Source: Streptomyces sp. NBC_01217
GTDB lineage: Bacteria; Actinomycetota; Actinomycetes; Streptomycetales; Streptomycetaceae
DNA: 64,000 nt
Reading direction: 5' to 3'
NCBI RefSeq assembly: GCF_035994185.1
Contig: NZ_CP108538.1
Coordinates: 3,844,001 to 3,908,000, forward strand
Part shown: positions 45,445 to 58,047 of the stretch, piece by piece
Layout: each line of letters begins with the position of its first letter
How positions within the stretch are numbered: position 1 is the first letter of the stretch
Notes under the pieces: model-generated
Seen by the model: the letters and a program-made list of their open reading frames with translations, nothing else
Told to the model about the DNA's origin: nothing
The model's database searches: none
Made by a program: the position numbers and the translations under genes

Positions 45445-48150
45445 CTACGCCCCCACCACAGTCGCCCGGCTCAGGAACGCCAGGCGGGCCCGCTTCTCCG
45501 GCTTGTCGATCTCCGGGCCGAGTTCGAAGCCTGCCCGGACCATCCGCGCGACGGCCTTCTCGTTGCGGACGTCCGGTTCCACGACGACCCGCAGGTGCGC
45601 CGGGTCGCTGAAGACGTAGGTGATGAGCACCGAGAGCAGGGCGCCGGTGTAGCCGTGTTCGGCGGTGTCGCCGGGGCCGATCAGGAGGTGGACGCCGAAG
45701 TCGCCGGGCTGGACGTCGTAGCAGTCCGCGATCGGGTCGGCGGCCGGTTCGTACGTCTGGAAGAGGGCGACCGGAACGCCCTCGCGCACGGCCAGATAGG
45801 CGTGGTGCGTGGTGAGCGAGTCCAGGAACTCATAGGTCTCCAGGACCTCTTCGCGGCTCGCGCCGCCCATGCCCCAGAAGCGGGCGCGCTCCTCGGTGAC
45901 CCAGCCGTGGATCACGTCGAGGTCCGCGGCGGGGTCCACGGGCACGAGGCGGACGGTCCCGAATCCGGGGATCTCCTGCTCGTGGACGGGGGTGCGCACC
46001 GCGCTCACGGCGGGGTCGGCGGCCATCTCGGGTCTCTCTTCCGTTCGGTGCAGTTTGTTCCAGTCCATGACCACGGGCGCGAGCCCGCCCTCTGCCCACA
46101 GCGGCAGCTGGTCACGGTGATGGGCCTCGCCGCGGACCCCGGACGCCCCGAACGGGACCACCCACAGGCTGTCCTCACGGCGGGCCAGGTCCCAGACGTA
46201 GCGGGCGGCGGGACCGCGGGCGAACCGGTCGGTGATGCCGGGGACGCTGGAGGTGGACAGCACGCAGTCGTGGTCACCTGCGAGGCCCGGCCAGTCGGCG
46301 TCCGGGTCCTCGCCGGGCAGCGCCTGCCAGGGCGCCAGCCGGTGCACCTCGCGCCAGGGCCGCGGCGGGGCGTCGTCCTGCGGATACCGGGCCGCCACCG
46401 CCTCCGCCGCCGCGGCGACGGCCGCCATCCGGTCGGCGTGCGGCAGCGGCCCGTGCGTCAGCAGGGTCTCCAGGGCGTACGCGATCCTCGGCAGCGCGGC
46501 CAGCCAGGGGCGGAACATCGCCGGGTACGCGGGCGAGGCGGCCGGGTCGGCGGAGCCGGTGAGGGCGGCCAGGGCGGGGTGGGCGGCCAGCCGGTGGACG
46601 ACATCGGCGCGCACGGCCGCGTAGAGCGTGGCGTCCGTGCTGTCGGCCTCCATGTGCCGGTCCCAGCGCAGGAGCCGGTCCCGCAGACGGGTGGCCCCGG
46701 GGCCGAGACCGGTCGCCGCGGCCAGCAGCTCCAGCAGCGGGCCGGCGGAGGCGAGGCGGGTGTCGGTGTGGATGTCCGCCATGCCCTTGGCGGACCACTG
46801 ATCGCTCCGGCCGAGCAGCTCCCGTATCCGCTCCTCCCGGTGCGGGGGCGCGAACTCGACGCCGAGCGGGGAGGCGAGGCCACGCGCGTTGGCCATCACG
46901 GCCGCACCGTCCTCGACCCCGGCGCGGGGCATCGGCGCATGGCGGCCGCGCCAGGCGTACGCGGGATCGTGGGCCGGTACGACGCGCAGCCGGTTCTCGC
47001 GCGGGCGCAGCGGGACGTGCCCGGCGACCCGGTGCAGGGTGGCGCCCGCGGTGTCGGCGGCGAGGACGACGTTGACCGGCTCGGCCCAGTGGTCCAGGGC
47101 GGTGTCGAGATCGGCGACGGTACGGGCCCGCAGCAGGGCGGGCAGCACCTCGAAGCCCAACTCATGGGTGACGCGGGGCGGGTAACGAAGACTGATGCCA
47201 CCCGCGTCACCGCCAGCGCCGCCGTCCCCGTCCGGGCCGCCGATGATCACCGGGCCGCGCTCGGTCTCGATGATCTCGACCGTGACCGGGCCGGCGCCCG
47301 CCACCTCGATCGTCTCGGTGTGGACGGCGGCAGGCTCCCAGCCCTCGGGGCCGAACGCCTCGACCCCGCCCGTCGCCGTGCGCCGCAACCGCTCCCGGTA
47401 CAGGTCCTGGTAGTCGGCCATCGCGTTGGTGATCGCCCAGGCGACGCCGCCCGTGTGCCCGAAGTGGGCGATGCCGGGTACGCCGGGAACCGCGAGGCCC
47501 ACCACGTCGAACTCGGGGCAGGCTAGCCGGATCTGCTGGTAGACGCCCGGGTCCTCGACGAAGCGGTGCGGGTCGCCCGCGATGACCGCCGCCCCGGTGG
47601 CGGTGCGGTCCCCGGTCAGCAGCCAGCCGTTGGAGCCGGAGGTGCCGGGGCCGTCGGTGGCGAAGAGCTCCGTCGCGCCGTCGCCGAGCCGGCGGGCGAC
47701 CTCCTCGCGCCAGAGCTTGGCGGGGAAGCCCGCGAACAGGATGTGGGTGGAGAGCCAGACGCCCAGCGGGGTCCAGGGCTCCCACCGTCCGGGGGCGAGC
47801 CCGGCGGCCGCGAACTCCGGTGCGGGGCGGGCCCCTTCGGCCAGGCCCTCGTTGACGCCGTCGACGTACGAGACGACCCATGCGGCGGCCTCCGGAGCGA
47901 CGCGCTCCAGACGGTCGAAGCAGCGCTGCGCGGTGTCGGCGAGCCGGGCCTGCCGGGCGAACCGGTCCCAGTCGACGGCGTCGGCGCCGAGGAACGCGGC
48001 CGTGCTGCCCTGCACCCGGTGCCGTTCGACCTCGATCTGCCAGGCGCGGTCCCGGGCGGCGTTACGGCCCTGGGCGCGGGCGAGTTCGAGGGCACTGCCC
48101 GCCCGGAGGTGGGGTATGCCCCAGCCGTCCCGGTAGATGGTTCCACGCAT
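45445..48150 (-). CDS. penicillin acylase fused to a siderophore-type acyltransferase, iron-regulated
   Basis: Residues 1 to about 700 are an Ntn-hydrolase of the penicillin acylase family: the alpha-part start TIYRDGWGIPHLRA, and the autocleavage site with nucleophile Ser173 in GTSGSNGWLL. Residues about 720-901 form a GNAT domain of the IucB/RhbD/AlcB kind (FWGMGGASREEV, GDFGVHLLIGPGD, VVVEPDVRNEKAV), which acylates hydroxylated amines in siderophore synthesis. There is no signal peptide, so it is probably cytoplasmic. A perfect iron box lies 61 bp upstream. Separate penicillin-amidase and acyltransferase genes (DesG, DesH) have been proposed for aryl-desferrioxamines; this could be a fused form. 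Confidence 0.88.
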   Translation of the reverse strand: MRGTIYRDGWGIPHLRAGSALELARAQGRNAARDRAWQIEVERHRVQGSTAAFLGADAVDWDRFARQARLADTAQRCFDRLERVAPEAAAWVVSYVDGVNEGLAEGARPAPEFAAAGLAPGRWEPWTPLGVWLSTHILFAGFPAKLWREEVARRLGDGATELFATDGPGTSGSNGWLLTGDRTATGAAVIAGDPHRFVEDPGVYQQIRLACPEFDVVGLAVPGVPGIAHFGHTGGVAWAITNAMADYQDLYRERLRRTATGGVEAFGPEGWEPAAVHTETIEVAGAGPVTVEIIETERGPVIIGGPDGDGGAGGDAGGISLRYPPRVTHELGFEVLPALLRARTVADLDTALDHWAEPVNVVLAADTAGATLHRVAGHVPLRPRENRLRVVPAHDPAYAWRGRHAPMPRAGVEDGAAVMANARGLASPLGVEFAPPHREERIRELLGRSDQWSAKGMADIHTDTRLASAGPLLELLAAATGLGPGATRLRDRLLRWDRHMEADSTDATLYAAVRADVVHRLAAHPALAALTGSADPAASPAYPAMFRPWLAALPRIAYALETLLTHGPLPHADRMAAVAAAAEAVAARYPQDDAPPRPWREVHRLAPWQALPGEDPDADWPGLAGDHDCVLSTSSVPGITDRFARGPAARYVWDLARREDSLWVVPFGASGVRGEAHHRDQLPLWAEGGLAPVVMDWNKLHRTEERPEMAADPAVSAVRTPVHEQEIPGFGTVRLVPVDPAADLDVIHGWVTEERARFWGMGGASREEVLETYEFLDSLTTHHAYLAVREGVPVALFQTYEPAADPIADCYDVQPGDFGVHLLIGPGDTAEHGYTGALLSVLITYVFSDPAHLRVVVEPDVRNEKAVARMVRAGFELGPEIDKPEKRARLAFLSRATVVGA

Positions 48151-48210
48151 GCCGTATTCCGCCCCTTGCCAGTCCGTGCCGGTCCGTTCGACTTCCCAAG
48201 CCCCCAGAAT

Positions 48211-48229
48211 TTAGGTTAGCCTAACCTAA
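48211..48229. promoter_or_regulatory. iron box (DmdR/IdeR operator)
   Basis: TTAGGTTAGCCTAACCTAA is a perfect 19-bp palindrome centred on 48220 and matches the iron box bound by DmdR1/IdeR with Fe2+. It lies 61 bp before the acylase fusion start on the minus strand, so that gene should be repressed by iron. Confidence 0.95.
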
Positions 48230-48258: not shown

Positions 48259-48828
48259 GTGGGCCACGGCTGGGAGGGCGTTGTCCTCAAGGACCCCGAG
48301 GTGGTCGAACCGGCCGACTTCATCGGGGTCGACCGGGGCATCGTCAACCTCGCCACCACCAGTGACGCCACCAACTACCAAGGCCGCCGCCTCAACCGCT
48401 GCCGAAGGTGGCACGCCCGCAAGCGGGCTCAGCTCCAGGCGGTGGGCACCCGTTCTGCGAAACGCCGTCTCGCCCGCCGCGCGGGGAAGGAAACAGCGTT
48501 TTGCCACGCATGTGAACCACAGGATCTCCAAAGAGATCGTGTCCGTCGCGAAACGCACCGGTCGAGGGATCGCCGTCGAAGCACTCGACGGCATCCGGGA
48601 CCGGGTACGGCTTCGACGCGACCAGCAGGGCACGCTCTCCTCCTGGCCGTTCCACAGCTCGGACAGCACCTGAGGTACAAAGCCCGTCGGGCCGGGGTGC
48701 CGTTCCTGGAGGTCGATCCGGCCTACACCTCGCAGCGCTGCCCGCGCTGCGGACACACCGAGCGGGCCAACCGGCCCACCCGTGACCGTCCCGTCGTAGG
48801 GGGTAGTCGGGAGCGCGACAAGGTGTGA
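48259..48828 (+). pseudogene. broken tnpB (IS200/IS605 OrfB) remnant
   Basis: Parts of a TnpB are recognisable but split between frames. FIGVDRGIVNLATTSD (first RuvC Asp) is in one frame, NHRISKEIVSVAKRTGRG and AVEALDGIRDR (Glu motif) in the next. The first frame then returns with RYKARRAGVPFLEVDPAYTS and CPRCGHTE (half of the zinc finger). The N-terminal half and the last catalytic Asp are missing. At least two frameshifts make it inactive. It differs in sequence from the intact tnpB at 23347. Confidence 0.8.
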
Positions 48829-49173
48829 ACTGAACCGAGTGCACAGGCTCGGCCGTTCACGGCCGAGAAGTTGACGTTCACCGTGACCGGGGCCTTCCAC
48901 CGGGTGCACCTCACCGACGGCGGGCTGCTCGCCGCGACCTGCGGCACGCACCCGACAATGTGGGGCAGGATCTGGTTCGAGCAGGGCGGCATACCGCACC
49001 AGCGCGCACCGCGCGAGCAACCTTGCCCGGGTCGAGGTCCCCCGGAGCACACTGCGCCGGGATCCGACAGCCCTGACCAGGGCAGGGGTCGCCCCTCCGG
49101 TGTCCACCTCATCCCGATGGGCGAGAGAGCCGTCTCCGCATCCGGAGCCGACGGCCGTCTGGGGCGCCCCGCT
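48829..49173. other. 345-bp stretch with no supportable gene
   Basis: This follows the tnpB remnant and precedes the stop of the leftward aldehyde dehydrogenase. CTCGGCCGTTCACGGCCGAG (48848-48867) is a perfect stem-loop that may belong to the old element's right end. Frames on both strands are Cys/Arg-rich and unlike real genes. Confidence 0.35.
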
Positions 49174-56149: not shown

Positions 56150-57694
56150 TCACGGGGTGGCGGGGACGCAGACCGCGTACGACTGGACGGTCTGCGGGCC
56201 GGCACCGCTGTTGTACGCGGAGACGTGCCAGGTGTTGGTCGCGGTGTCCGGGTAGCTCGCGGTCCAGTGGATCTCCTCGTTCTGCAGCTGGTTCACGGCA
56301 CCTCCCCCGGTCAGCACGGTCCCGGCCGGGCACTGGGCGTTGATGTTCTCGACGCTGCCGCCGGCGGGAATGAGCGTGGCGGCGCTGGTGGCGGTCTGCG
56401 ACGGACCAACAGGGCCCGTCGGACCGGTCGGACCGGTCGCACCGGTCGCACCGTCAGCACCAGCCGGACCAGTCGGACCGGTCGCACCGTCAGCACCAGC
56501 CGGACCAGTCGGACCAGTCGGACCGGTCGCACCGTCAGCACCAGCCGGACCAGTCGGACCGGTCGCACCGTCAGCACCAGCCGGACCAGTCGGACCAGTC
56601 GGACCGGTCGCACCGTCAGCACCATTGGTACCGGCAGCACCCGTCGGACCCACAGGACCCTCCGGACCGGTCGCACCGTCAGCACCATTGGTACCGGCAG
56701 CACCCGTCGGACCCACAGGACCCTCCGGACCGGTCGCACCGTCAGCACCATTGGTACCGGCAGCACCCGTCGGACCCACAGGACCCTCCGGACCGGTCGC
56801 ACCGTCAGCACCATTGGTACCGGGGAGGCCTGCGGCACCCGTGTCACCGGTGGCGCCCGTCGGACCAGTGGGTCCAGTGGCACCATCGAGTCCGTCAGTA
56901 CCATCGAGTCCGGCAGCACCCGTCGGACCCGTCGGACCCGTGGGCCCGGTCGGACCGGTCGCACCGTCGACACCCGCCGGACCAGTGGCACCAGTGGCGC
57001 CCGGCAGACCCGTCGCACCCGTCGGACCGGTCGCACCGGTCGGACCGTGAGCACCGACCGCACCGGACGCGCCCGTGGCACCGGTGGCGCCCGTCAGACC
57101 CGTCGCACCCGTCGGACCGCTGGGACCGGTCGGACCGGTCGCACCGTCGACACCCGCCGGACCAGTGGCACCAGTGGCGCCCGTCAGACCCGTCGCACCC
57201 GTCGGACCAGTAGGACCGGTCGCGCCGTTGGCGCCCGTCGGGCCCGTGGGCCCGGTGGGCCCGGTGGGCCCCGTGGGACCGGTGGCGCCATCTCCCGGGA
57301 AGTCGTCACAGAACGGCACAGAGGTCTGCGTCGAGATGTAGCGGGCGCTCATCCAGCCGCTGCCGTTGGACAGCAGGTACCACAGAGAGTTCCCTTGGAC
57401 GCTCTGACCGAACACCTGGCAGGCGATGGACACCGTGCCGCCGGAGGGCACGCTGCCCACGATCGACGACTGGGTCGTGGGACCGCTGCGGATGTTCTGA
57501 GAGGTCTGGGCAGTGACCGTCCCGGACACGCTCGCCGCCACCCGGCTGGCCATGACCCGGTTGGCCGCCTGCGAACCCGTGGGGTTCGGCGCCCCGTGAG
57601 CGATGTCCATGGGGCACAGAGCCAGGGTCATCCCCAGCGACATGGCACCCAGGGTTGAACGGGACAGAATGTCCCAGCTTCTCGATTTATGCAT
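56150..57694 (-). CDS. secreted collagen-like protein with SH3-like domain and Gly-X-Thr repeats
   Basis: From ATG 57694 the 514-residue protein has a signal peptide ([10 protein letters not shown], hydrophobic core, IAHG). A bacterial SH3-like domain follows at about 55-115 ([20 protein letters not shown]), then roughly 290 residues of uninterrupted Gly-X-Y triplets rich in GPT, GAT and GAD. A C-terminal beta domain of about 80 residues ends in CVPATP, with two further Cys-pair candidates. Thr in the Y position, in place of hydroxyproline, is typical of bacterial collagens and is a known sugar attachment site. The SH3 domain may hold it to peptidoglycan. AAGGAA precedes the ATG. Confidence 0.88.
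56409..57290 (-). repeat. collagen-like triplet repeat region
   Basis: This encodes the Gly-X-Y stretch in near-identical 9-, 18- and 45-bp blocks (GGACCGGTCGCACCGTC occurs many times). Such DNA recombines easily and tends to be mis-assembled. Confidence 0.9.
56621..56809 (-). repeat. three tandem 63-bp units within the collagen-like gene
   Basis: ACCATTGGTACCGGCAGC recurs exactly every 63 bp (56621, 56684, 56747, with a partial copy at 56810). Each unit encodes 21 residues with [19 protein letters not shown]. Identity is essentially perfect, so expansion was recent. Confidence 0.9.
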
Positions 57695-58047
57695 CTCGGA
57701 TTCCTTACCGGTTCTGCGTGGATCGGAGCCGTGACTGTGACAGGCGGAACAGGGCCAGCGCATATGCGCCACGCCGATGATCTTCCGTCTGGGTGCAGAC
57801 CGCTCCCCTTGTGAGTGAGGGGTGCTTCGGCTATCTGCTCTATCTGCCCCTATTTACAGCCTGGTTAGGCGCATTCGAAATGTCTGCCTGACCACCTGCA
57901 CGCCCCCGAGAACCCCGTGTCGCGTCATGGCAGCCGGATTCATGCGCACTAGCGTCGCTTTCCGCGGTGACCGGATCGGCCGATCCCGTACACCGCACGG
58001 ATTCGCCGCGTGGCTTTACTCCATACAAGCCGGATCAGGAGACGTAT
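57695..58047. other. 353-bp divergent regulatory region between collagen-like and glycosyltransferase genes
   Basis: No gene is seen. The middle (57835-57890) is A/T-rich for this genome (TATCTGCTCTATCTGCCCC, TTTACAGCCTGG). Two promoters must face away from each other here. A shared control region would tie expression of the repeat protein to the glycosyltransferase. Confidence 0.45.

Follow-up and report, generated by a model that had tools for sequence, protein, structure and literature searches.

The closest described system is the desJ, desG and desH locus of Streptomyces coelicolor, which Augustijn et al. presented in 2025 as a DmdR1-controlled locus lying away from desABCD (PMC12161575). 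In that species, the production of desferrioxamine B (DFOB) was about 1000-fold lower in a desG mutant and about 16-fold lower in a desH mutant; both mutants made more desferrioxamine E (DFOE), and DFOB returned on complementation (PMC12161575). The authors proposed that DesG takes the succinate off N-hydroxy-N-succinylcadaverine and that DesH acetylates the product. According to the same paper, the DmdR1 control of desJGH in S. coelicolor rests on a regulon prediction, and the two genes are fused into a single desGH gene in S. atratus and in two Micrococcus strains, so that the fusion as such is not new. A literature search for the word desGH returned no other paper. Here, we describe a desGH gene of Streptomyces sp. 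NBC_01217, located in a window (the whole stretch of DNA analysed) of 64,000 nucleotides that spans positions 3,844,001 to 3,908,000 of contig NZ_CP108538.1. The gene is a real and intact DesG-DesH fusion behind an iron box, and is of a kind already known. We are highly confident that the best overall explanation is that the fusion protein swaps succinyl for acetyl on the desferrioxamine monomer, thereby favouring DFOB.

The open reading frame (ORF) of desGH contains no internal stop, according to both the ORF list and the translation. Pfam assigns residues 4-700 to PF01804 (Penicil_amidase; 497 bits versus a cut-off of 21.3) and residues 739-882 to PF13523 (Acetyltransf_8; 165 bits versus a cut-off of 27). 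The rule by which DesGH is recognised in PMC12161575 is the presence of PF01804 and PF13523 within 1 kb; here, both domains lie on one chain, the box is of the predicted DmdR1 type, and desABCD is present in the genome. In quick trees, which gave long-branch warnings, the protein groups with other DesG and DesH sequences, nearest to the S. atratus fusion, and its DesH part stands apart from DesC. Upstream of the desGH ATG, no ATG, GTG or TTG occurs in frame back to the preceding stop; given this and the start of PF01804 at residue 4, the protein has no signal peptide and should be cytoplasmic. The iron box is an exact TTAGGTTAGGCTAACCTAA on the minus strand, with the ATG 60 bp further on. It is the only place in the window at three or fewer mismatches (none in 100 shuffles) and the sole exact copy in the 9.03 Mb genome, in which seven distinct sites are found at two or fewer mismatches versus none for the reversed control pattern. 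An earlier, sequence-only reading of this DNA had claimed a 901-residue fusion of an N-terminal nucleophile (Ntn) amidase, with Ser173 in its active site, to an acyltransferase under a perfect iron box, and on both counts it was right.

Likened by description, the S. coelicolor pair SCO4049/SCO4050 (DesG and DesH) has in common with desGH the domain families, the iron-box control and a desABCD located elsewhere in the genome; the differences are that desG and desH are two genes there and one in the window, and that desJ is present there and broken in the window. For comparison with other loci, we used the best 80 of 583 confirmed loci as relatives, to which all counts of relatives given below refer. 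The closest named relative among them is S. atratus JCM 3386 (L008), whose orthologous fusion is 88% identical over its full length and is preceded by an identical perfect iron box. Over the amidase part, identity to the Streptomyces loci is 63-88%, except for L052 (60%) and L057 (57%). An iron box with at most four mismatches lies directly upstream of desG in 71 of the relatives, comprising 48 of the 53 fused and 23 of the 27 split forms. For eight of the nine relatives without such a box, des genes are located at most 5 kb away (L035, L045, L052, L055, L074, L080, L084 and L086), and the ninth, L051, has a site with five mismatches.

The sequence-only reading noted that a siderophore synthetase is missing from the surroundings, which is true of the window but not of the genome. 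IucA/IucC synthetases are encoded at three places, none of them within the window, and the nearest is the DesD of a complete desABCD; the synthetase missing from the window thus sits 0.65 Mb off. This run, consisting of a siderophore-interacting protein (SIP) gene followed by desA, desB, desC and desD (L088), is found at C1:3.234-3.241 Mb of the window's own genome, and the iron box ahead of its desA is one mismatch from perfect. The same genome also carries, at C1:6.70 Mb (L089), a second siderophore cluster of the nonribosomal-peptide-synthetase-independent (NIS) type, in which two IucA/IucC synthetases are accompanied by a PF13523 GNAT and an aminotransferase. We found nothing in favour of a tie between desGH and that cluster; desG tracks DesD across genomes.

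The link between DesG and desABCD across genomes is tight. In an even draw of 121 Streptomyces genomes, counted by hand with thresholds (DesG E <= 1e-100, DesD E <= 1e-200) that were chosen after the gaps in the match lists were visible, DesG is present in 70 genomes, all 70 of which have DesD, and DesD is also present in 25 of the 51 genomes without DesG. Two weaker DesG matches lie below the threshold, that of G012, described further below, and that of G001, which has a partial desG together with DesD; in G083, the match is limited to the GNAT part. In a draw of 296 genomes of the phylum (DesG E <= 1e-80, DesD E <= 1e-60), a DesD match accompanies DesG in 12 of 12 cases and occurs in 8 of the 284 other genomes. 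The corresponding Fisher p values, which ignore the kinship of the genomes, are 1e-12 for Streptomyces and 2e-16 for the phylum. In all five non-Streptomyces DesG genomes of the phylum draw, desG lies beside desA, B, C and D; among such des clusters, desG and desH are fused in L132 and L133, and split in L134. In ten of the 80 relatives, des genes occur no more than 5 kb from desG.

The active site and the solved relatives of the amidase half give an indication of its substrate. Ser173 lies in the motif GSNGW, and is conserved in all 81 sequences aligned and in five of five distant DesG proteins. The beta chains of 35sz, of 4hsr and of penicillin G acylase begin at the position aligned with Ser173. 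As in S45 Ntn hydrolases, S173, N421, R438 and R441 are invariant in 81 of 81 sequences; we take N421 and R441 to be counterparts of penicillin G acylase residues. The best solved match is PDB entry 35sz (353 bits), followed by glutaryl-7-ACA acylase (215 bits) and D-succinylase (112 bits), while penicillin G acylase reaches at most 57 bits with any chain and less than 30 with its separate beta chains. Position 24 of the beta chain (Arg196) is Arg in 81 of 81 DesG sequences and in five of five distant ones, as well as in 35sz, 4hsr and D-succinylase, and is Phe in penicillin G acylase. By alignment, Arg196 may hold the carboxylate of the succinate.

The entry 35sz, named 'penicillin acylase family protein', consists of an alpha and a beta chain, with 19 residues in between covered by neither. 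The DesG of L135 (genome G222; L135:8298-10499) shows no printed difference from it over 532 beta residues and is located in a desABCD cluster, which identifies 35sz as a DesG from a des cluster. It is about 40-45% identical to the window DesG, and no DesH was detected within 16 kb at L135. Its name, unlike those of glutaryl acylase and D-succinylase, does not give a substrate specificity, and no publication on it was among the matches listed in our literature search. Glutaryl-7-ACA acylase (4hsr) and D-succinylase (7ea4/7eby) share with DesG the beta-chain residues Ser1, His23 and Arg24, although they are named for other substrates and their similarity is moderate.

These features bear on the original hypothesis for desG, as retold in PMC12161575, according to which DesG transfers or frees a phenylacetyl group and arylated desferrioxamines result. 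Membership of PF01804 is in its favour, and penicillin G acylase belongs to the same superfamily. However, Phe24 of that enzyme, which presumably lines its acyl pocket, is replaced by an invariant Arg in DesG, and the solved relatives that rank ahead of penicillin G acylase take their names from dicarboxylic acyl groups. For these two reasons, we reject an aryl-acetic amidase as the principal reading. The window protein has neither an aromatic residue at beta 24 nor a signal peptide, the latter being given as a trait of the penicillin G acylase family in PMC11241749. In addition, the part of PMC12161575 available to us reports that no arylated desferrioxamine was identified in S. coelicolor despite its desG. 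Aryl capping is, consequently, very improbable. The sequence-only reading had allowed for the release of either an aryl-acetic acid or an acyl group; the removal of an acyl group agrees with the published model, and the aryl-acetic part is weakened by the Arg at the Phe24 position and by the names of the nearer solved relatives.

PvdQ belongs to the same superfamily as DesG; a PvdQ-like acylase was rejected as a candidate (NCBIfam, 24.8 bits versus a cut-off of 950). The genome contains a second DesG-like ORF of 541 aa at C1:8588793-8590443 (L127:4819-6444), behind a two-mismatch iron box. It lacks the stretch equivalent to 60-219, and hence Ser173, His195 and Arg196, with the frame kept, and no GNAT match lies beside it. 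It is probably a decayed or a catalytically dead paralogue.

The transferase half has its PF13523 match and GNAT type in common with DesC, and both proteins have DfoC and NcdE as their closest solved chains. DesH and DesC are separated by a branch with 100% SH-aLRT support (again a quick tree with long-branch warnings). DesC has a conserved Glu-Arg pair (of 31 sequences, all have Glu73 and 27 have Arg74), which DesH is without; in its place, DesH has Gln798 and Thr799, each in 80 of the 81 sequences. The Gln-Thr versus Glu-Arg difference would fit a different acyl or substrate pocket in DesH, but does not prove acetyl specificity. An aminoglycoside acetyltransferase was rejected, as the NCBIfam matches were weak (at most 25.8 bits versus cut-offs of at least 260).

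Taken together with the S. coelicolor phenotypes, these data suggest the following course of the monomer swap. When iron is low, DmdR1-Fe would come off the box and desGH would be transcribed. The precursor would stay in the cytoplasm and cleave itself before Ser173. Of the two resulting chains, alpha and beta, the latter would bear the GNAT as its C-terminal part. DesG would hydrolyse the hydroxamate-linked succinyl of N-hydroxy-N-succinylcadaverine, the product of DesA, DesB and DesC, with Arg196 gripping the succinate carboxylate. The tethered DesH would then acetylate the freed N-hydroxycadaverine with acetyl-CoA ahead of its re-succinylation by DesC, so that the fusion may channel the intermediate. 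Finally, N-hydroxy-N-acetylcadaverine would cap the chain built by DesD, which would yield linear DFOB and not only macrocyclic DFOE.

DFO G1 and DFOB differ only in their end group. One alternative is that DesGH acts on a linear oligomer, either DFO G1 or an intermediate dimer, and trades its succinyl end for acetyl, in which case DFOB would arise directly from the finished chain. This would involve the same chemistry and the same kind of bond, and the mutant phenotype in S. coelicolor fits a monomer or an oligomer substrate alike (PMC12161575). Yet the sequence gives no sign of a large substrate and the published model is that of a monomer (PMC12161575); we regard editing after assembly as unlikely. 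The sequence-only reading had let the transferase reload the hydroxamate of a desferrioxamine, and in this it agrees with PMC12161575 and with the desABCD link, except that the published swap takes place on the monomer and not on the finished siderophore.

It should be noted that several observations weigh against the monomer swap as a sufficient account of DFOB formation. In the literature examined, neither step was found to be backed by an assay of the DesG or DesH enzyme, and the role proposed for Arg196 is taken from an alignment. One Streptomyces genome without a DesD match (G012, L137) retains a desG, which is broken by a frame change, truncated and below the threshold, and no DesH was detected for the distant DesG proteins in the des clusters of L135 and L136. 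S. globisporus bja209 is reported to make DFOE and strain 4-3 DFOB, although their des clusters are identical (PMC12525621). Another S. globisporus strain carries the fusion (L014); together with the contrast between the two strains, this implies that DFOB production depends on more than having desGH. S. atratus ZH16 is described as a producer of nocardamine (DFOE), and the part of PMC6011815 available to us contains no report of DFOB from this strain. As for Kribbella, K. speibonae is reported to make DFOB, D1 and nocardamine (PMC7411998); the nine Kribbella loci among the relatives, a list that favours fusions, all have the fusion, and K. speibonae is not one of them.

The search of other genomes also bears out the fusion, which is unbroken in 53 of the 80 relatives, S. 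atratus included, although this share overstates that of fusions because fused genes score higher. In the Streptomyces draw, at least 12 of the 70 DesG genomes have an unbroken match over the junction (hand count, among the matches listed); ten of these matches are full-length, including that of the window's genome, and, in the order listed, those of G115 and G066 start from residues 297 and 305. Both parts lie in a single open frame in G100, among the matches listed for this draw. On the amidase tree, a quick tree with long-branch warnings, the fused label changes five times, and four of these changes are forced by well-supported branches. On this tree, the fusion appears to have undergone several gains or losses. 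Streptomyces sp. WZ.A104 has two desGH fusions (L018 and L052), which belong to different clades; one of them lies beside desBCD. L057, recorded as Streptomyces sp. SID13031, is placed among Kribbella in both trees and is perhaps a mislabelled genome.

The linker has apparently kept a trace of the unfused state. In the 17 of the 27 split loci that were printed, desH starts 4 to 14 bases before desG ends, and is preceded by a GAGGAG-like Shine-Dalgarno stretch. The window's clade in our sample has 17 members, all fused, and an in-frame linker start is found in each of them (13 ATG, 4 GTG). With the best of several starts taken per linker, the duplex with the 16S tail has an energy of at most -6 kcal/mol in 16 of these members and of at most -8 in 14, versus 23% and 6.4%, respectively, of 1973 in-frame ATG/GTG codons of the amidase part, which served as control. 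The corresponding numbers are 35 and 29 for all 54 fused genes, and eight of the ten members of the Kribbella clade have no start at -6 or lower. Since the 17 genes are close relatives, the best start was picked and the motif could persist on account of Glu codons alone, the use of this start is put forward as a hypothesis. We consider it rather improbable that DesGH, besides its action on the monomer, also swaps the succinyl end of linear desferrioxamine after assembly (turning G1 into B) and that the gene yields a second product, free DesH made from a preserved internal ribosome-binding site and Met709, with the transferase in excess over the amidase.

The neighbour of desGH has been less well preserved (Table 1). 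Among the relatives, a SIP gene (desJ) is present in 52, and in 51 it is divergent and directly upstream of desG, some of the matches being partial. S. atratus has a full-length desJ match at the divergent place (79%), whereas the window desJ has suffered a TnpB-like insert and a deletion, which have broken it and left desGH and its box intact. The TnpB-like remnant has no match in the loci of the relatives, and no further piece of desJ was found. In place of about 2.6 kb of the S. atratus locus, the window has 161 bp without a match, beyond which the correspondence to S. atratus resumes. Three further SIP genes lie elsewhere in the genome, one of them in the des cluster.

The divergent SIP gene and the predicted cytoplasmic location of DesGH could be seen as pointing to a role in recycling or detoxifying acylated siderophores that are imported or foreign; the sequence-only reading had considered the recycling of acylated or foreign siderophores. 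Against this stands the near abolition of DFOB by the loss of desG in S. coelicolor, a biosynthetic phenotype (PMC12161575), which disfavours that suggestion. Moreover, desG is found only in genomes with desD at the thresholds used, and in the window desJ is broken and desGH is intact. This function is the least probable of those considered and is highly improbable.

Table 1. Positions of desGH, its parts and control elements, and the desJ remnants in the window
Feature	Position	Strand	Remarks
desGH fusion gene, 901 aa	45445..48150	-	ATG start; 88% identical to the orthologous fusion in S. atratus JCM 3386
DesG part, S45-type Ntn amidase, residues 1-700	46051..48150	-	PF01804 from residue 4
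Ser173 codon; predicted nucleophile, first beta-chain residue and site of autoprocessing	47632..47634	-	Alignment
Arg196 codon (beta 24); candidate residue for carboxylate binding in the acyl pocket	47563..47565	-	Alignment
Linker, residues 701-735	45946..46050	-	Varies strongly in length and sequence among fused relatives
In-frame ATG (Met709) in the linker, matching the desH start of unfused loci	46024..46026	-	Could give a free 193-aa DesH
Shine-Dalgarno-like GGAAGAGAG ahead of the internal ATG	46034..46042	-	Duplex of -8.6 kcal/mol with the 16S tail
DesH part, GNAT N-acyltransferase, residues 736-895	45466..45945	-	PF13523
Iron box, DmdR1/IdeR-type operator, perfect 19-bp match	48211..48229	-	Pattern search
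5' remnant of divergent desJ (siderophore-interacting protein)	48259..48291	+	GHGWEGVVLK as in the N-terminus of L012 desJ (by eye)
TnpB/OrfB-like remnant inside desJ (left edge inferred)	48292..48828	+	PF07282; PF01385 below the cut-off
Second desJ remnant	48850..49008	+	64% identity to residues 25-83 of L012 desJ

Further along the window, at 56150-57772 on the minus strand, lies an ORF whose 540-aa product contains long Gly-x-y repeats of the collagen type.

In summary, the evidence supports the published mechanism over the aryl-acylase and recycling readings, and adds to it the share and history of the fusion, the kept internal start, the broken desJ and the invariant Arg196. DFOB is an essential medicine listed by the World Health Organization (PMC11003418), and the choice between DFOB and DFOE was tied to desGH in 2025 (PMC12161575). 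The retained internal start raises the question of whether fused genes still yield free DesH. Desuccinylation is made directly testable by the one-chain form that recurs across actinobacteria, by the succinyl specificity that the invariant Arg predicts and by the 35sz structure.

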